Shown here in pieces: positions 4,991 through 20,328 of a stretch of DNA of 38,548 nt. The position numbers and the translations under genes were made by a program. The DNA is taken from contig JAURGC010000003.1 of the NCBI GenBank assembly GCA_030833985.1, positions 1 to 38,548 of the forward strand. The letters are read 5' to 3'. This DNA comes from Algoriphagus sp. (GTDB lineage Bacteria; Bacteroidota; Bacteroidia; Cytophagales; Cyclobacteriaceae). Below the pieces are notes generated by a model. That model was given only the letters and a program-made list of their open reading frames with translations, ran no database searches and was not told the DNA's origin. The stretch's first letter is position 1. Each line of letters opens with the position of its first letter.

Positions 4991-7030
4991 ATGAGTAATC
5001 CCCTCCTTTCTTCGTTTACCACCCCTTTCAATACAGCCCCTTTTCCAGCAATTTTAAATGAACACTTTCAACCCGCATTTGTCGCTGCAATTCAGGAGGC
5101 AAAAGGAGAAATTGAAGCAATCAAACGGGAATCCTTACCCACCTTTGAAAATACGGTGGAAGCCTTAGAAAAAAGTGGGAAACAACTAGGGGTCCTATCG
5201 GCTTTATTTTTTAACCTAAATTCTGCAGAAACGAATGCTGAACTACAAGGACTTGCCAGAGAGATTTCTCCACTTCTAACTACACATGCGAATGATATTT
5301 TATTAGATAAAGAACTATTTCAACGCATTTCACAGGTTTTTGAGCAAAGAGAACAACTTTCCCTAACTGCTGAGCAAACAACGCTCCTAGAAAAAACATA
5401 CAAATCTTTTGTGCGCAATGGAGCCCAGCTAGGAAAAGAAGCTGCGGATACACTTCGAAAAATTGACCAAGAATTGGCGCAACTTAGTCTTCAATTTGGA
5501 GAAAACGTATTGGCAGAGACCAATAAATTTATTCACTTGGTAGCTAATTTAAGTGAACTTGAAGGCCTTCCTAAGGGTGCGTTGGATGCTGCAGCACAAC
5601 TTGCAGAAGAAAAGGGAAAAACTGGTAGCTGGGCATTTTCCTTGGATTATCCTTCCTACATTCCGGTGATGACCTACGCCAAAAACAGAAACTTGAGAAA
5701 AGCATTGTTTATGGCATTCAATACCAAATGTGCCAAGCAAGATGAGTTAGACAACCAAAACATCATAAAGCAATTGGTATCCTTAAGACACCAACGAGCG
5801 CAACTTCTGGGTTATGAAAACCATGCCCACTTTACTTTGGAAGAACGCATGGCTAAAAGCCCAATCACAGTTTTTGACTTTTTAAATTCTCTTTTAGAAA
5901 AAGCCAAGCCCAAAGCCTTACTTGATGTCCAGGAAGTGGCAGACCTAGCTAAAAAAATAGACCAGTTGACTACTTTGGAAAAATGGGATTTCGCCTACTA
6001 TTCTGAATTACTCAAAAAAGAAAAATATGCTCTAGATGAAGAAGAACTTCGTCCTTACTTCAGTTTAGAAAATGTGATTTCTGGAGTATTTGCTACTGCT
6101 TCGCGTTTATTTGGCCTTCGCTTTGTCCCTAATCGAGAAATTCCAGTCTACCACCCTGAGGTGACTGCTTACGAGGTGTATGACCGAGACAATAGGTTTT
6201 TATCCGTGTTTTACGCAGACTTCTTCCCGAGACCTGGAAAAAGAAATGGGGCTTGGATGACTTCCTATAAAGGACAATATTTTGAACAAGGAATCGATCA
6301 CCGACCCCATATTTCCATTGTTTGCAATTTCACCAAGCCTACCAAAACCAGTCCTAGCCTACTTACTTTCAACGAAGTTACCACCCTCTTCCATGAGTTT
6401 GGACATGCCTTACACGGCATGATGGCTAGAGGAATATACGAAAGTCTATCAGGAACAAGTGTATTCTGGGATTTTGTAGAACTCCCTTCTCAGATCTTTG
6501 AAAACTGGTGTTATGAAAAAGATTGCCTTGACCTGTTTGCGAAGCACTACCAAACGGGAGAGCCCATACCTAGTGATTTAGTAGCTAAAATCAAGAAAGC
6601 TGCTAATTTCCAGCAAGGGTATATGACACTTCGCCAATTGAGTTTTGCCTTATTAGATATGGCTTACCATAGCCAAGACCCAGGTCAAATCCACGATATC
6701 AAAGCCTTTGAATCGCAGGTATTGAAAGGGACCGAGCTGCTGCCAAGCGTTGAAAATACACGCATCAGCACCAGTTTTTCCCATATTTTTCAAGGAGGAT
6801 ATGCTTCGGGGTATTACAGCTACAAATGGGCCGAAGTTCTCGATGCAGATGCCTTTGAATTATTTCAAGAAAAAGGAATATTTGATTCATCTACGGCCAC
6901 TTCCTTCGAAAAAAACATCCTATCTGCCGGAGGTAGTGAACATCCTTCCCTTCTCTATGCGCGATTTAGAGGGAGAGATCCAAAACCAGATGCACTATTA
7001 AAACGTAGTGGACTAGTAACCAGCAAGTAA
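4991..7030 (+). CDS. M3 family metallopeptidase (oligopeptidase A / dipeptidyl carboxypeptidase-like)
   Basis: HEFGHALHGM zinc motif and M3-like architecture. ATG at 4991 (MSNPLLSSFTTPFNTAPFPAI) preferred to the upstream TTG at 4895. Confidence 0.9.
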   Translation: MSNPLLSSFTTPFNTAPFPAILNEHFQPAFVAAIQEAKGEIEAIKRESLPTFENTVEALEKSGKQLGVLSALFFNLNSAETNAELQGLAREISPLLTTHANDILLDKELFQRISQVFEQREQLSLTAEQTTLLEKTYKSFVRNGAQLGKEAADTLRKIDQELAQLSLQFGENVLAETNKFIHLVANLSELEGLPKGALDAAAQLAEEKGKTGSWAFSLDYPSYIPVMTYAKNRNLRKALFMAFNTKCAKQDELDNQNIIKQLVSLRHQRAQLLGYENHAHFTLEERMAKSPITVFDFLNSLLEKAKPKALLDVQEVADLAKKIDQLTTLEKWDFAYYSELLKKEKYALDEEELRPYFSLENVISGVFATASRLFGLRFVPNREIPVYHPEVTAYEVYDRDNRFLSVFYADFFPRPGKRNGAWMTSYKGQYFEQGIDHRPHISIVCNFTKPTKTSPSLLTFNEVTTLFHEFGHALHGMMARGIYESLSGTSVFWDFVELPSQIFENWCYEKDCLDLFAKHYQTGEPIPSDLVAKIKKAANFQQGYMTLRQLSFALLDMAYHSQDPGQIHDIKAFESQVLKGTELLPSVENTRISTSFSHIFQGGYASGYYSYKWAEVLDADAFELFQEKGIFDSSTATSFEKNILSAGGSEHPSLLYARFRGRDPKPDALLKRSGLVTSK

Positions 7031-7069
7031 ATCCCCCCTCTCACCTTTTTCTTACTTAATAATCTTTAC

Positions 7070-8170
7070 ATGAGCTCAAAAACACTCCCACTCCCCCCCT
7101 ATCTTAAGGTATTGGCAGTTTTGGCTTTATTGATTGTGGTGATTTTCGTTTTAATTGTGGGGAAATCTATCCTTATCCCTTTGGCCATGGGAGCATTTTT
7201 CGCAGTACTATTTACTCCGCTATGTTTGTATTTAGAAAAAATTAACTTTTCTAGAATCCTTTCCTGCATAGTATCCCTGCTATGTATGATTGGAATCGGG
7301 TTTGGATTATTGAGTTTTATCGTGAGCAACCTAATTAGTTTTTCTAAAGATTTTGCTAACGTATCTATTCGAATCAGTAGCTTGATAGAACAAGTAGATG
7401 AGTTTACAAGCTCGAAATTGGGTTTTCAGCAAAAACTGGTCGATGAATTGGACCCCAATGCCCTGCTTGCCTTGGTCAATGAAAATAGTGGGAGCATTTC
7501 TAAATTTGCCATCAATGCCATCGGATCCCTGAGTAGTCTTGTTTTGATTCCTGTGTTTATGTTTTTCTTTCTTCTCTACAGGGATCACTTAGTACAAGTC
7601 ATAATTTCCATGTACCAGGATACTAAACCGGAACTAGTTAAATCACAAATTATTAGGTTGCGTAAAGTAGTGTTAAACTATATTTCAGGGGTAGGTAAAG
7701 TAATGGTCATTCTTGCCCTACTTAACATCACTGCCTATACGCTAATTGGTGTAGATCACGCCATTTTTTTCGGACTTATTGGTGCCATTTTAAACATCAT
7801 TCCTTACATAGGCCCATTTATTGGAGCCTTACTTCCAATGAGTTATGCATTTTTGACGATGAACAACCTACTCTCCCCACTGTTGATTCTTGGGGCATAC
7901 CAAGCTATTCAACTCTTGGAGGGGAATATTTTAACCCCAAAGATTGTAGGAAACCAAGTGAATTTGAATGCCTTCATTACCTTTCTAGGTCTATTTTTGG
8001 GCGCCTCTATTTGGGGAGTAGCAGGAATGATTTTGATCATTCCTATGTTAGCTATTTTACGTGAAATATTTGACTTGTCTAATTCCACGAAGCCTTTTGC
8101 TCTGCTACTGGGAGAAGAACCAAAGGCAATAAAATCCAAACCAACTTCTGATGAAAATAAAAATTCCTAA
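7070..8170 (+). CDS. AI-2E family transporter / PerM-like permease (copy 1)
   Basis: Multi-TM protein with family-typical NIIPYIGPFIGALLP and GNILTPKIVGNQVNLNAF segments. Confidence 0.88.
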   Translation: MSSKTLPLPPYLKVLAVLALLIVVIFVLIVGKSILIPLAMGAFFAVLFTPLCLYLEKINFSRILSCIVSLLCMIGIGFGLLSFIVSNLISFSKDFANVSIRISSLIEQVDEFTSSKLGFQQKLVDELDPNALLALVNENSGSISKFAINAIGSLSSLVLIPVFMFFFLLYRDHLVQVIISMYQDTKPELVKSQIIRLRKVVLNYISGVGKVMVILALLNITAYTLIGVDHAIFFGLIGAILNIIPYIGPFIGALLPMSYAFLTMNNLLSPLLILGAYQAIQLLEGNILTPKIVGNQVNLNAFITFLGLFLGASIWGVAGMILIIPMLAILREIFDLSNSTKPFALLLGEEPKAIKSKPTSDENKNS

Positions 8171-13831: not shown

Positions 13832-13860
13832 AGGAGGCAATAGCCTCCTTTTCTTTTTTT
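13832..13860 (+). terminator. Rho-independent terminator of the PUR gene
   Basis: AGGAGGC-AATA-GCCTCCT followed by TTTCTTTTTTT, abutting the next ATG. Confidence 0.8.
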
Positions 13861-14955
13861 ATGCAACGGTTTTTTGTTTACTTGATCCTTTTCGCCCTTA
13901 CCTTCCTCCTATTTGGATGGTATTTTTCGGCTATTTCATTGTACCTGGTAATCGCATTAATTTTTGCTGCATTTTTAAGGCCTATTACCAATAAAATCAA
14001 CGAAGTACATCTTATGGGGCAACATATTCCCAGAGGAATTGCGATTTTATTATCCTATTTAGGAGTGGTGTCCTTGATTTTTCTATTGGGGCTTTTATTT
14101 TTCCCCTTGATTGGTCAGCAAATAAAAATTTTGAGTGAGTTGAATTTAGAGAGCATTTATCTTCAACTGGATACCCCTCTCGAAAAAATTGAGCGTTTCC
14201 TCATTAAATACCAAGTACTAGAAAATAGGTCAGGTATCCTTCTGGAGAAACTTCGTTTTGCAATTCAAGAAACTTTAAAAAAGTTTGATGTGGGAGGATT
14301 TATTACTGGTGCAATTTCAATCACAAGCACCATATTTATCGGCATACTCGCCGTAGCATTTATAACTTTTTTCCTATTAATAGAAAATGGACTCCTGCGG
14401 AGAAACTTGCTCAACATCATTCCAAATGCTTATTTTGAGCTTTCTGTGGCCACCTTTACCAAAGTGGAAAAACTACTTTCGAATTACCTTTTTGGCTTAT
14501 TAATTCAAATTATTGCTATTTTTTTATTGGCTTCCTTGACATTGAGTCTAGCAGGTGTCGAATATGCCTTGACCATCGCTCTTTTTGCAGCTATTGCAAA
14601 CCTAATTCCCTATGCAGGACCCATACTAGGAGCAGTTTTTGGTGTGGTGGTAGGGATTTCAACGGGAAACTTTTCTGCAGACAGTGACTACACTTATTTT
14701 TTAATTAAAGTGATTTCAGCGTTTACAGTAGTTCAAGTAATCGATAACGTACTCCTGCAACCGCTTATTTTTTCCAAATCTGTAAAAGCACATCCCCTTG
14801 AAATATTTGTTATTATCTTTGCTGGAGCAAAAATTGCTGGTATAGCAGGAATGATTTTTGCCATTCCGGTCTACACTATTTTCAGAGTGTCGATTTTGGA
14901 ATTTTTCAATGGTTACAAGTCCTACAAAATATTTAAAATTAAAGCAATAAATTAA
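13861..14955 (+). CDS. AI-2E family transporter / PerM-like permease (copy 2)
   Basis: Multi-TM protein; family-typical ANLIPYAGPILGAVFG and DNVLLQPLIFSKSVKAHPLEIFVIIFAG. Confidence 0.87.
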   Translation: MQRFFVYLILFALTFLLFGWYFSAISLYLVIALIFAAFLRPITNKINEVHLMGQHIPRGIAILLSYLGVVSLIFLLGLLFFPLIGQQIKILSELNLESIYLQLDTPLEKIERFLIKYQVLENRSGILLEKLRFAIQETLKKFDVGGFITGAISITSTIFIGILAVAFITFFLLIENGLLRRNLLNIIPNAYFELSVATFTKVEKLLSNYLFGLLIQIIAIFLLASLTLSLAGVEYALTIALFAAIANLIPYAGPILGAVFGVVVGISTGNFSADSDYTYFLIKVISAFTVVQVIDNVLLQPLIFSKSVKAHPLEIFVIIFAGAKIAGIAGMIFAIPVYTIFRVSILEFFNGYKSYKIFKIKAIN

Positions 14956-16052
14956 TGGCATTACAATGTGGCATAGTAGGTCTTCCCAATGTGGGAAAAT
15001 CTACCTTGTTTAATGCGCTATCGAGCGCCAAAGCAGAAGCAGCTAACTTTCCTTTTTGTACCATAGAGCCCAATGTGGGCGTAGTATCGGTTCCTGATGC
15101 TCGCTTACAGGAATTGGAAGCCTTAGTCAATCCTCAACGCGTAGTTCCAACAATTATTGAATTTGTTGATATTGCTGGTCTTGTAAAAGGAGCCTCCAAA
15201 GGGGAAGGTTTGGGGAATAAATTTTTGGCTAACATACGCGAAGTGGATGCCATCATCCATGTTATCCGTTGCTTTGAAGACAACAATATCGTCCACGTCG
15301 CCGGAGGCGTTGACCCAATATTTGACAAAGAGGTCATCGACACCGAATTGCAATTAAAAGATTTGGAGTCCGTAGAAAAAAAGATTCAACGGATCGAAAA
15401 AATGGCCAAATCTGGAGATGCCAAAGCAAGGCGAGAATTGGAAACTTTGCTCCAATTTAAAGAAGGATTGACTTCGGGCTTAAATGCACGAGCCATCGAA
15501 GTGGAGAAAGAGGAATTAGAAGCCGTTCGTGACCTTCATCTTCTCACCATTAAGCCAGTACTCTATGTGGCTAACGTGGATGAGGCAAGCATTCATACAG
15601 GAAATACCTTTGTAACTAAACTTCGAGAAAAAGTTAAAGAAGAAGACGCAGAAGTTATTGTCCTTTGTGCAGCCATCGAATCTCAAATTGCTGAATTTGA
15701 CGACCCCGAAGAAAAGGCCATGTTTCTTGGGGAATATGGACTCAAAGAAAGTGGTCTTAACCGCTTGATTTATGGAGCCTATACCCTACTCAATTTGATT
15801 ACTTACTTTACTGCAGGTGTTCAGGAAGTTCGGGCTTGGACCATAAGAAAAGGGTGGAAAGCTCCACAAGCAGCTGGTGTAATTCATACGGACTTTGAGC
15901 GAGGTTTTATCAAAGCAGAAGTGATTCGACTGGCAGATTTCAAACAATTTAAAACCGAAGCAGGTTGTAGAGAAAATGGAAAAATAGCTATCGAAGGCAA
16001 GGAATACATTGTTCAAGATGGTGATATTATGCATTTTAGATTTAATGTTTAA
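14955..16052 (+). CDS. ychF: Redox-regulated GTPase/ATPase YchF (Obg family)
   Basis: [69 protein letters not shown]-terminal TGS domain. Overlaps the upstream stop by 1 nt (TAATG). Confidence 0.97.
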
Positions 16053-16079: not shown

Positions 16080-16098
16080 CAGCACTTATTTAGACTCT

Positions 16099-16119
16099 GA
16101 GTTTTGACATTCAAAACTC
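16099..16119 (+). repeat. Perfect inverted repeat (9-bp stem, 3-nt loop) upstream of the Cas6-like gene
   Basis: GAGTTTTGA-CAT-TCAAAACTC. The following sequence CGTATTGTTTCATT has no terminator-like T tract. Confidence 0.7.
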
Positions 16120-16146
16120 GTATTGTTTCATTATATTTTTAAAACC

Positions 16147-17040
16147 GTGAGAGTACGTCTAATATTTTCGTTAAAAAATAAAGGCTCCTTTTTGCCTTTT
16201 CATCACCAGTATATACTGGCTCAATTCCTGAAAGGACTAATTGTCAAAGGAGGAAAGGAAGAGTTTTACAACTACAATTTCTTTAACTTTTCTGGATTGA
16301 AAGGACAAACTAAGGTAAGTCGTAGTGGGCTTCATTACTACTCTAGTTTGGTCACACTCGTCCTTTCTTCTCAAAGCGAAGAATTCATCGATTACTTGCT
16401 AGAACAAGTATTTGCTACTTCAAAAATTGAGTTGGGTAACTTGATTCTTTCCCCAGAATACACTGAACTCGAAGCTGAGCCTGTCTTGGAAGTGTCCAAC
16501 AAGTTTGTGTGCATCTCCCCCTTAGTCCTGATCACACCCGCTTTCAATGAAGAAGCTGGTAAACGATTCATCAATCCAGACAGTGACGAGTTCTCAGATC
16601 TCTTGTACGAATCTACACTAACTCGAATGGAGAAATCTGGCTGGTATAGTCCAGAGCAAATGGAATCCTTTTTTAAGTTCCAGGTGGTGCCTGATATGGT
16701 TTATGTAAATAAACTGAAAGAGCAACAGAAAAAATTCGCTAGAATCTACGCCGTATACGACCTAGACGTAAAATACGAGGTTCGTGGCTACACACTTCCT
16801 TTTACCTTGTATGCCGCTCCTGAAGTACAAGATTTTGTATTTAAGTGTGGTTTAGGTGCCTTTACCCACAAAGGTTTTGGAATGATGGACTTGGCCACAC
16901 ATCCTGCAGACAACAAAACTACTCCTTACAAATTTAAAAGAGAAGGTTTTGTGCCTTACAAGGCCACAGGAGAACGAGTTCGTCAAAACGTAGCACCTAC
17001 AGAAGAAGAAACTGAAATCACCACGACAGAAGAGTCCTAA
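16147..17040 (+). CDS. Stand-alone Cas6-like RAMP protein (CRISPR-associated endoribonuclease Cas6 family), probable GTG start
   Basis: N-terminus MRVRLIFSLKNKGSFLPFHHQYILAQFLKGLI resembles the Cas6 N-terminal ferredoxin-like fold; C-terminal GLGAFTHKGFGMM fits the Cas6 GhGxxxxxGFGxx loop. GTG at 16147 preferred to TTG at 16123. Confidence 0.75.
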   Translation: MRVRLIFSLKNKGSFLPFHHQYILAQFLKGLIVKGGKEEFYNYNFFNFSGLKGQTKVSRSGLHYYSSLVTLVLSSQSEEFIDYLLEQVFATSKIELGNLILSPEYTELEAEPVLEVSNKFVCISPLVLITPAFNEEAGKRFINPDSDEFSDLLYESTLTRMEKSGWYSPEQMESFFKFQVVPDMVYVNKLKEQQKKFARIYAVYDLDVKYEVRGYTLPFTLYAAPEVQDFVFKCGLGAFTHKGFGMMDLATHPADNKTTPYKFKREGFVPYKATGERVRQNVAPTEEETEITTTEES

Positions 17041-17061
17041 TTCCTTAAAATATTAGTAACT

Positions 17062-17098
17062 AACCCCAAAAAAGCTCATTTTTTTGGGGTTATTTTTT
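17062..17098. terminator. Terminator between the Cas6-like gene and the T9SS plug gene (likely bidirectional)
   Basis: AACCCCAAAAAA-GCTCAT-TTTTTTGGGGTT followed by ATTTTTT, between convergent genes. Confidence 0.85.
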
Positions 17099-17107
17099 AA
17101 ATTAAAG

Positions 17108-18388
17108 TTAGAGTCTTCGCTTATTTGGTTGCAAATATACATACCCTACCAACTGATCGTAGCGAGAACCCAGGCCTCTGTAATACACAAATACCTCGTA
17201 TTCATTCTCAGTTTGAAAGTGACTTCCTTCCAAGGATTCAAAGTCATAGCTCCCGTCTTCATTTATAGATGCAAACTGGTAATCGTACCATCCTTGCTTC
17301 AACAACAAAGAAGTAGCATACAAGCGCTTCTTGCTATCGTAAACCATCGTCGCTTCAGGTGCCTTTCCCCATTGGCTAAGCCCCCCCATCAATTTGATGT
17401 TTTTTCCTGGTACATCATTGAAGTAAAAAGTAGTATATACATACTCACTTTCTACTTCAGCATTCCCACCAGGTCGATCGTTGGTTTGGACTACAAATTG
17501 ACCATTCAGATCTAAATACTGTACATAAGCTCCGCCAGGTCTTGGTACATCTACTCGTGCATCTGCTACCACTAAGGATTCTTCTACCTTAACCGAAGCT
17601 ACATTTACGCCCGTCGCACGGATAAATCGTAAATCTATAAATCGAAACTCATTTCCAGCTCGAAAGGTACTCTCCCCTTCAAAGGGTTCGTACCGAATGA
17701 GTTTTGAGTTCTGATTCAAAAAAGTAGGTATGTTCAATACTTTCGCATTGTCCCAACGCTGGTTTTGTCTGATCACCACTTTGATTTGTACCTGAGGATC
17801 AATTACTTCTAAATTACTGTAGTTGACGGAAGTATTTATTTGTTGTAAGGTCCGACGGTCTTCGGTCTGTGTGGGGGGGACCACTTGAGCTGCTACTACA
17901 GCACTATTCTCTATAACCATAAACCGCTTGGTGAAAACCACAGCATTCTCATCCCGATTTTTATAAACTTTAAGAAGGTAATTCCCTGATTTACTGACCC
18001 GAGGAACATTAAATGCATACCGAATGTAGGGCATTCGTGTATTTACGGAATAGGAGTAATCCATTAAAGTAAATTCATTAAACGATAAGGAAAAATCCGT
18101 GTCTCTCAAACTCGATTTCTTCCAATCTGAATCGCAGTGAATTAGTTTGGCCGTATACAACTCCGGATCATAGGATACGTCGTCAAACCACAGGACAAGG
18201 GATTTCGAATCCGTCAGGGAAATAACTGGGGAATTTAGCTGGTTTTCTAAATCCCCTCCCTGAGGAAAAATCCGAACAGATAAAATATGGTCCGCATATA
18301 CTTTGTCTTCCAATACTTGGGTCTTTCCGAAAAAAGATGGAATTAAGAAGAAATACAAAAAGAGTAAAATCGGCTTTTTAAATCGCAT
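17108..18388 (-). CDS. Type IX secretion system plug protein (DUF5103)
   Basis: Signal peptide MRFKKPILLFLYFFLIPSFFGKTQ; HILSVRIFPQGGDLENQLNSPVISL and conserved beta-sandwich segments of DUF5103. ATG at 18388 chosen over the longer ORF. Confidence 0.85.
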   Translation of the reverse strand: MRFKKPILLFLYFFLIPSFFGKTQVLEDKVYADHILSVRIFPQGGDLENQLNSPVISLTDSKSLVLWFDDVSYDPELYTAKLIHCDSDWKKSSLRDTDFSLSFNEFTLMDYSYSVNTRMPYIRYAFNVPRVSKSGNYLLKVYKNRDENAVVFTKRFMVIENSAVVAAQVVPPTQTEDRRTLQQINTSVNYSNLEVIDPQVQIKVVIRQNQRWDNAKVLNIPTFLNQNSKLIRYEPFEGESTFRAGNEFRFIDLRFIRATGVNVASVKVEESLVVADARVDVPRPGGAYVQYLDLNGQFVVQTNDRPGGNAEVESEYVYTTFYFNDVPGKNIKLMGGLSQWGKAPEATMVYDSKKRLYATSLLLKQGWYDYQFASINEDGSYDFESLEGSHFQTENEYEVFVYYRGLGSRYDQLVGYVYLQPNKRRL

Positions 18389-18396
18389 TTTTTTCT

Positions 18397-20328
18397 TTAA
18401 AATGAAGAAACTTGCTGCTGCAGTAATGAAATTTGATCCACCAACTGCTCCCAATTGGCAGTTACTACAGCAAGAGAAACTTGAATTTGCTGGTAACTTA
18501 CCTGAGTACTCTGAGCTTCCAACTCATCCAAGTATAAGGAAGGCTCTGCCAATTTGGCTTCCAAATCCTGCTTTTGTACTTCCAATTGGTGGATTTCTTT
18601 TTCGACAACTTGCAACTGATCCTCTAATTTCTTCAATTCCCGTTTGGCCTGCTGCGTTTCTTCTTTACTTTTTGTTGGAGTCATTGGTGTTGCCTTAACC
18701 AACTTTTGCACGGGTGCAGTTACTACCTGGTCTACCTGCTGGCTTCTCCAAAACTCATATTCCTCATACGTTCCCGGATATTCCTTGATTTCATTTTGCT
18801 CGATGTACCAAATTTTATTAGCCACCCCTTTGATAAAATGACGGTCGTGGGAAACCGTGATAAAGGTACCCTCATACTGCTGCAAAGCCTGAATAAGTAT
18901 ATTCACAGATTGAAAATCCAAATGATTGGTCGGTTCATCCAGCAACAAGAAATTGGCTTCAGAAATCAGGGTTTTGGCCAAAGCCACTCGCGACTTTTCC
19001 CCTCCTGACAATACTTTGATTTTTTTGTATACCTCTTCGTTGGAAAAAAGGAAACATCCCAAAACACCCCTCAGCTCCATTTCTGTTTTCCCACTTCCTG
19101 CCTGAGACATTTCTTGAATGATCTCGTTATCTAAGGTCAAGGCTTCCAATTGATGCTGGGCAAAAAAGGATTTGATCACATTGTGACCCTCTCCCCGCTT
19201 ACCAGAAATAGTCTCTGTTCCAGCAATGATGCGAAGTAAGGTGGATTTTCCTTTTCCATTTGCTCCAATCAATGCTATTTTATCCCCACGCTCAATCCTG
19301 GCAACAGTGTTTTTCAAAATCGTCAAGTCCCCATATGCTTTGGATACTTGATCCAAGGTTACTACATCACGACCCGATTTTTGTGAAAATTTAAATTTAA
19401 AATTCACAAAGGCTTCGTCATTCACTACCTCGTGCACACGCTCCATGCGATCCAATGCCTTAATTCGGGATTGCACCTGGTTGGACTTGGTGGCCTTTGC
19501 TCGGAAACGTTCGATAAACCGTTCTGTTTGCTTGATTTGTTGCTGCTGATTTTCGTAGGCGTTCTGCTGCAACTCCATCCGTAATTTTTTCTCTTCCTTG
19601 TAAAAGGAGTAATTACCTGGATAGGACGTTAAGGTTTGGTTGGCCACCTCTACGGTAGTACTGATGCAATTGTCTAGAAAGGTCTGGTCGTGAGAAACCA
19701 CTACCACTGCTCCTTCGTAATTTTTAAGGTAATTCTCCACCCATTGGATGGAGGGAAGATCCAGGTGGTTGGTCGGTTCATCCAACATTAGCAAAGCTGG
19801 CTTTTCCAATAACAATTTAGCGAGCATCACCCGCATCCTCCATCCCCCAGAAAACTGGCGTAAAGGCTTTTGCAAATCATTGGTTTGAAATCCAATCCCC
19901 TCCAAAACCTCCTCAGCTTTTGCTTTAATCGTGTAGCCCTCATTAGATTCAAATCGATCCTGAAGGTAAGCCAGTCGGTTAATTACCTCTTCCGAATAAT
20001 CTGTCTCCATCAATTTCAGCACCTGATCTATTTCTTCTTGAATCGCCAAAGTCTCTTTAAATGCAGCCAACGCCACATCCAAAATAGAATCATCCGACTG
20101 ATAGGATAATAAGTCTTGATTCAGAAATCCAATGGTACAATCCTTAGCCTTCTGAACCTCTCCTGTGGTGGGCAGGTAATCCCCATGGATAATTTTGAGC
20201 AAGGTTGATTTTCCCGTTCCATTCTGACCTACTAGGCCAATTTTATCTTTGGGCTTGATATGTAAGTTGGCATTTTCGTACAACGCACGGCCGCCAATAA
20301 AATAAGAAAGGTTACTGATGGATAACAT
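18397..20328 (-). CDS. ABC-F family ATP-binding cassette protein (Uup/YdiF-like, C-terminal coiled coil)
   Basis: Two ABC domains (GQNGTGKST / FSGGWRMRVMLAKLL / LMLDEPTNHLD and GANGKGKST / LSGGEKSRVALAKTL / LLLDEPTNHLDF), no TM segments, C-terminal coiled coil. Confidence 0.94.
   Translation of the reverse strand: MLSISNLSYFIGGRALYENANLHIKPKDKIGLVGQNGTGKSTLLKIIHGDYLPTTGEVQKAKDCTIGFLNQDLLSYQSDDSILDVALAAFKETLAIQEEIDQVLKLMETDYSEEVINRLAYLQDRFESNEGYTIKAKAEEVLEGIGFQTNDLQKPLRQFSGGWRMRVMLAKLLLEKPALLMLDEPTNHLDLPSIQWVENYLKNYEGAVVVVSHDQTFLDNCISTTVEVANQTLTSYPGNYSFYKEEKKLRMELQQNAYENQQQQIKQTERFIERFRAKATKSNQVQSRIKALDRMERVHEVVNDEAFVNFKFKFSQKSGRDVVTLDQVSKAYGDLTILKNTVARIERGDKIALIGANGKGKSTLLRIIAGTETISGKRGEGHNVIKSFFAQHQLEALTLDNEIIQEMSQAGSGKTEMELRGVLGCFLFSNEEVYKKIKVLSGGEKSRVALAKTLISEANFLLLDEPTNHLDFQSVNILIQALQQYEGTFITVSHDRHFIKGVANKIWYIEQNEIKEYPGTYEEYEFWRSQQVDQVVTAPVQKLVKATPMTPTKSKEETQQAKRELKKLEDQLQVVEKEIHQLEVQKQDLEAKLAEPSLYLDELEAQSTQVSYQQIQVSLAVVTANWEQLVDQISLLQQQVSSF

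Follow-up and report, generated by a model that had tools for sequence, protein, structure and literature searches.

A Cas6-family core protein encoded beside ychF in Algoriphagus and related Bacteroidia, retained independently of CRISPR and probably binding a cellular RNA

Why does a bacterium keep a Cas6-like gene where no CRISPR array is seen? The question is raised by a 38,548-nucleotide stretch of Algoriphagus sp. DNA (the window), the full length of contig C6 in a MAG of 2.6 Mb and 229 contigs that is 82% complete. A sequence-only reading had described a stand-alone Cas6-like RAMP protein there, chromosomally settled as an orphan, and had proposed that it acts in trans on a distant array or has been repurposed to process or bind a cellular RNA.

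The gene (16147..17040, forward strand) has a GTG start and a product of 297 aa. An alternative TTG start lies at 16123; the alignment of relatives begins at M/V-R-x-R, the same point as the GTG at 16147. The product matched PF01881 (Cas_Cas6_C) with E 4.9e-21 and 76.3 bits (cut-off 23) and the NCBIfam model TIGR01877 (cas_cas6) with 68.3 bits (cut-off 58.65). All of its PADLOC matches were Cas6 models. The AlphaFold model, built from an alignment of 66 natural homologues, had a mean pLDDT of 84.8 and a pTM of 0.82. Its best PDB matches were all Cas6: 5yi6, 3qjj (PH0350, which we take to be PhCas6nc) and 3ufc, followed by PfuCas6 (3i4h/3pkm). Compared with solved two-domain Cas6 proteins, the best E was 3e-17, and the TM-score on the target was 0.81–0.84 for the first six matches. 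The Cas6 signature, a glycine-rich loop (GLGAFTHKGFGM, residues 235–246, 16849..16884, forward strand), precedes the last strand. Its residues 235–245, GLGAFTHKGFG, fit G-Phi-G-X5-G-Phi-G, the published consensus of the Cas6 glycine loop (PMC3727216). The product is a true Cas6-fold protein of the Cas6/RAMP superfamily; the proposed family and the GhGxxxxxGFG-type loop were both confirmed. Residues 266–297 (16942–17037) form an acidic C-terminal tail of low model confidence and variable length. Long tails occur mainly in the window's family, and the tail is probably disordered.

Neither CRISPR-like repeats nor other cas genes were found in the 38.5 kb of the window, as the sequence-only reading had stated. 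The genome-wide search that it suggested covered cas genes in the gene's own genome (82% complete), where no Cas1, no Cas10, no Cas3 over the cut-off and no Cas6b were found, and arrays in 24% of that genome, where none was found. The gene was located neither in a CRISPR-Cas locus nor in a genome with detected class 1 effectors. No array was present within 131 loci of the gene (1.5 Mb); as a positive control, the array script detected the 81-repeat array of locus L213. PF10040 Cas6 was absent from 12 selected genomes.

Among the 76 genomes of the genus, Cas1 was found in 22, Cas10 over the cut-off in 5 and Cas3 over the cut-off in 9. The Cas10 and Cas3 genome sets were disjoint, so that 14 of 76 genomes carried a class 1 effector. 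Thirteen of these 14 had a Cas6 of their own, which was Cas6b in seven and a second PF01881-type Cas6 in six; the Cas6b genomes G046, G016, G065 and G021 were checked in detail, and the assembly of the 14th carrier (G032) is in 680 contigs. In at least 61 genomes of the genus, the Cas6-like protein occurred with no class 1 effector found, and the single-contig genomes G033 and G064 carried the gene with no Cas1, Cas3 or Cas10. Over 149 relatives, Cas1 occurred in 51 of 120 genomes with the protein and in 7 of 29 without it (counts read by hand from presence lists; p = 0.09, not significant). As class 1 systems were present in only 14 of 76 genomes and 13 of these supplied their own Cas6 or Cas6b, service to an array in trans is not the reason for retention. 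The gene is retained independently of CRISPR in the genus.

The CRISPR systems of the genus were themselves recorded. A type III operon of Algoriphagus runs from position 16739 of L231 into L213 to position 13853 (G046), and it also occurs in L233/L214 (G016) and L232/L216 (G065). It contains Cas6b, Cas10, several RAMP-like genes, Cas1 and a BT4734-like protein, together with two similar genes of 360–380 aa and a probable helicase; in G046 it includes the 81-repeat array. L213, L214 and L216 were considered as Cas6-less type III loci that the window's protein might serve, and this was rejected because they carry their own Cas6b upstream. In type I-bearing Algoriphagus genomes, a second, CRISPR-type PF01881 Cas6 was found near cas genes or arrays (L073, L074, L075, L077, L078 and L219), with about 22% identity to the window's protein. 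Cas6_I-A was over the cut-off in L074 and L219, the two scanned.

The distribution of the protein was analyzed with a profile (A1) built from 30 diverse members. Core proteins scored 264–428 bits and a divergent branch 179–248 bits, and all other Cas6 in the phylum sample scored below 90. The core protein was present in 75 of the 76 genus genomes at 86–99% identity (among the 149 relatives), and the single genome without it was an 81% complete MAG. At 40–66% identity it also occurred in many families of the order and in most members of its own family, one of which reached 86%; about 132 of 243 genomes drawn evenly from the order were carriers. The gene was full-length in sampled genomes and single-copy even in relatives of 2.2–2.8 Mb. 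Several families of the order had no core gene, some with genomes of 1.1–1.6 Mb and some with 5–7 Mb, indicating that it is not strictly or universally essential. The divergent branch came from three families (f88, f103 and f121) that belong to other orders. In f88, all 25 genomes had exactly one match each, even at 79–85% completeness. Divergent-branch proteins from other orders of the class (L113–L122) were 244–256 aa long in those scanned; where the core has KGQTK they had KGTSK or KGFSK, and the loop lysine was exchanged for E or Q. GTDB species genomes yielded 406 relatives, and the best 80 of 406 were mostly labelled as Cytophagales taxa; among these 80, the closest named relatives were Algoriphagus (88.5–88.9% identity), and other genera reached at most 87%. 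Named carriers were Algoriphagus, Cyclobacterium, Echinicola, Marivirga and Sporocytophaga. The stand-alone orphan of the earlier description is thus chromosomally settled and has no CRISPR neighbourhood, but it is not isolated, being a core gene of a large group.

A maximum-likelihood tree was calculated from 74 proteins (42 core, 10 of the divergent class branch and 22 CRISPR-linked). Core and divergent proteins fell on one side and CRISPR-linked Cas6 on the other, and the three sets of rows each needed one label change only. Support for the splits was moderate, with ultrafast bootstrap values of 83–87 from a bootstrap that had not settled. The ancestry of the core clade is separate from that of CRISPR-linked Cas6. 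Core rows grouped by family. Pairwise distances of the core protein and of YchF, encoded next to it, were correlated (Pearson 0.81 over 4186 pairs; median ratio 1.5). The median dN/dS of 62 close pairs was 0.020 (range 0–0.046), indicating strong purifying selection. With near-universal presence in the genus, purifying selection and a tree following taxonomy, the gene behaves as a vertically inherited core gene. One long CRISPR row, L076, was placed at the base of the core side. This locus (6638–8130, G129) holds a tandem pair of Cas6 genes and a CRISPR array; the second Cas6 is short, without the canonical catalytic segment, and has a very long branch.

Residues were counted in 161 core proteins, 10 divergent homologues and 35 CRISPR-linked Cas6. 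The archetypal active site of PfuCas6 has Tyr31, His46 and Lys52 (residue numbers in part from PMC3652601). In the alignment with PfuCas6, the Tyr31 position corresponded to K29 of the window's protein and the Lys52 position to N44, and the His46 segment was absent. At the Tyr31 position, 31 of 35 CRISPR-linked Cas6 had Tyr, and 133 of 161 core proteins had Lys. The stretch holding His46 included a His in 34 of 35 versus 17 of 161, and its median length was 39 residues in CRISPR-linked Cas6 versus 27 in core proteins, which makes it about 12 residues shorter in the core. The Lys52 position was Lys or Arg in 32 of 35 CRISPR-linked Cas6, and Lys in 5 of 161 core proteins. The core protein does not have the PfuCas6-type Tyr/His/Lys set.

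Other positions were kept. The four loop glycines were present in all 161 core proteins; the loop lysine was not kept in the divergent branch. New residues were essentially invariant in the core: H20, Q21, K52-G53-Q54, S66, D183, Y186, K195, K196, R199 and D248. H19-H20-Q21 (16201..16209, forward strand) starts helix alpha1 in the model, with H20 in 160 of 161 core and 10 of 10 divergent proteins. K52-G53-Q54 (16300..16308, forward strand) was found in 161 of 161 core proteins and was absent as a shared feature from CRISPR-linked Cas6. KKFAR (residues 195–199, 16729..16743, forward strand) leads into strand beta2' of the C-terminal domain according to the alignment and the model, and its K195, K196 and R199 were invariant or nearly so. 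The AlphaFold model places the beta2'-beta3' hairpin at strands 198–205 and 208–215. In Cas6, this hairpin has a role in RNA positioning, and active sites sit between alpha1 and the glycine loop (PMC3727216), with residues that differ among subfamilies (PMC3727216, PMC3652601). SsoCas6 of Sulfolobus cleaves without a catalytic His, so loss of the triad is no proof that cleavage is lost, and since the Tyr/His/Lys triad is not universal in active Cas6, its absence is not decisive (PMC3652601).

The nearest solved relatives included PhCas6nc (3qjj) and the Cas6-related protein of P. furiosus (3ufc), which were among the best sequence and structure matches at about 20% identity and have the same two-RAMP fold and glycine loop. 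PhCas6nc is described as inactive, as a homologue of the CRISPR enzyme PfuCas6 and as binding repeat RNA, with a wrap-around cleft for RNA (PMC3727216). Judged from fold and residue loss, the core protein may be a non-catalytic Cas6 of the PhCas6nc kind. Unlike PhCas6nc, the core family has its own invariant residues and occurs mostly in genomes without class 1 CRISPR. The archetypal endoribonuclease PfuCas6 (3i4h, 3pkm) has in common with the core protein the fold, the glycine loop and an N-terminal P-[FY]-x-H-Q, whereas its Tyr31, His46 and Lys52 positions are missing from the core protein along with the His46 segment. In Algoriphagus and other Cytophagales, the Cas6 and Cas6b proteins linked to CRISPR belong to the Cas6 family and are encoded in the same genomes; they are about 22% identical to the core protein, form a separate clade and lie beside cas genes or arrays. 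Those of the PF01881 type keep the canonical Tyr and His positions, and the core protein does not. Solo-Cas4 is a precedent, as it is also a Cas-family protein encoded outside CRISPR loci, but it belongs to another protein family, that of an adaptation-module nuclease (PMC5704561).

The neighbours in the window were identified as the earlier reading had named them. ychF, encoding the redox-regulated ATPase YchF (14955..16052, forward strand; TIGR00092, E 9e-151), is directly upstream with a gap of 94 nt, and a T9SS plug gene (17108..18454, reverse strand; NF052315, E 1e-112) is convergent with the cas6-like gene. In 73 of 76 named loci, a set biased to close relatives, ychF was the immediate upstream gene and had the same orientation; this was also the case in 21 of 48 deliberately diverse loci. 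The median gap in the latter was 106 nt, which is not that of a tight operon. The pair was conserved across much of Cytophagales, although lost in several families, and occurred outside the order in L116 (f88) and L120–L122 (f103). Adjacency over such distances is suggestive of a functional link; an inherited ancestral gene order without function is possible. YchF is a ribosome-associated ATPase, which suggests a link to translation. Other operon partners were considered and rejected: a PUR-like DUF3276 gene, an AI-2E-type transporter, the T9SS plug gene and an ABC-F gene recurred only with the ychF synteny. The T9SS plug gene is not part of the system; it is a neighbour kept in many relatives.

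Taken together, these results favor a domesticated Cas6-family protein, core and CRISPR-independent, that most likely binds one cellular RNA. On this view, a Cas6-like ancestor would have taken up its chromosomal place next to ychF before the Bacteroidia lineages carrying the gene diverged, and vertical inheritance as a CRISPR-independent core gene would have followed. The protein would have retained the two-domain RAMP fold, the glycine loop and the basic C-terminal hairpin region, with which Cas6 proteins hold RNA, and lost the archetypal Tyr/His/Lys cutting residues. As the cutting residues are lost and the RNA-binding fold is kept, the core protein probably handles the cell's own RNA. It most likely acts as a sequence- or structure-specific binder, a chaperone or protector, of one particular RNA. 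Rfam gave no match in the window; the ychF linkage makes an RNA involved in translation or in ribosome handling the first candidate. The repurposing proposed by the sequence-only reading is accordingly favored by core status, the family's own residue signature and catalytic loss, and its cellular RNA is our inference. More tentatively, Cytophagales and related Bacteroidia could have a housekeeping RNA pathway not recognised before, with a Cas6-derived protein, genetically linked to YchF, that binds or matures a specific cellular RNA required for normal translation.

The main rival to a purely RNA-binding role is an active housekeeping endoribonuclease that cuts a defined cellular precursor RNA; H20, K52 and basic residues close to the beta2'-beta3' hairpin would make up its rebuilt site. 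We regard this as rather unlikely. H20 stands at the start of alpha1 in nearly all core and divergent proteins, there is hardly any variation at K52, K195 and R199, Cas6 sites between alpha1 and the glycine loop differ in their residues among subfamilies, and SsoCas6 cuts without His (PMC3727216, PMC3652601). Against it, PfuCas6 also has a His at the place of H20 and yet uses other catalytic residues, the canonical triad positions are lost, and an inactive Cas6 is among the nearest solved relatives.

The remaining explanations are much less likely. Type III loci often rely on a Cas6 from other loci (PMC12669027), and arrays exist in some carriers, so an ordinary Cas6 serving resident or incoming arrays in trans was considered. 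This reading is strongly disfavored and seems very improbable, given that most genus carriers have no class 1 effectors, that 13 of the 14 with effectors are self-supplied, that the 131 core loci hold no array, that the Cas1 association has a p of 0.09 and that the catalytic positions are lost. A chromosomal factor against mobile elements, binding foreign RNA such as crRNA or phage RNA, would agree with the RAMP fold and with PADLOC matches that are all Cas6 models. We give it little credence: defence genes are usually patchy and mobile, but this core gene is slow-evolving, sits beside ychF and has no relative in viral contigs. A viral origin was likewise rejected, with no viral contig relative and no significant viral fold match. 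Least credible of all is the idea that the gene is either a degenerating remnant of a former CRISPR system or a passenger of the genome. The missing cas partners and canonical catalytic residues would suit a relic, but it is contradicted by selection (dN/dS about 0.02), full-length frames, invariant motifs and a single copy in relatives of 2.2–2.8 Mb.

In the literature searched, with subscription papers outside its scope, no CRISPR-independent core Cas6 was reported in this group. Known CRISPR exaptations mostly involve whole or reduced systems, transposons or repeat RNAs (PMC8730458). In the 2025 CRISPR classification, hits beyond CRISPR loci counted as false positives when the profiles were built, and such a family could escape notice there (PMC12669027). 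Because the core protein scores above the NCBIfam Cas6 cut-off, annotation may assign a Cas6 to genomes that have no class 1 CRISPR. A lone Cas6-family protein fixed in the core genome of a large bacterial group, with conserved residues of its own, would be a clear example of the CRISPR RNA-processing fold in normal cell life; alternatively, the core protein may be an ancestor-like, non-CRISPR RAMP. The five named carrier genera make the question testable.

Two small structures flank the gene. A terminator-like hairpin with a T run lies 3' of it (17061..17092, forward strand), and similar ones were found in most genus members. On the 5' side, a 10-bp hairpin at 16098–16120, 26 nt before the Cas6 start, is a candidate ychF terminator or regulatory element. 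A family-wide autoregulatory role for this 5' hairpin was rejected, as most other genus members had weak or displaced hairpins. In the close relatives L003–L010, hairpins occurred at about the same 5' place with different stem sequences, so that structure was kept and sequence was not.
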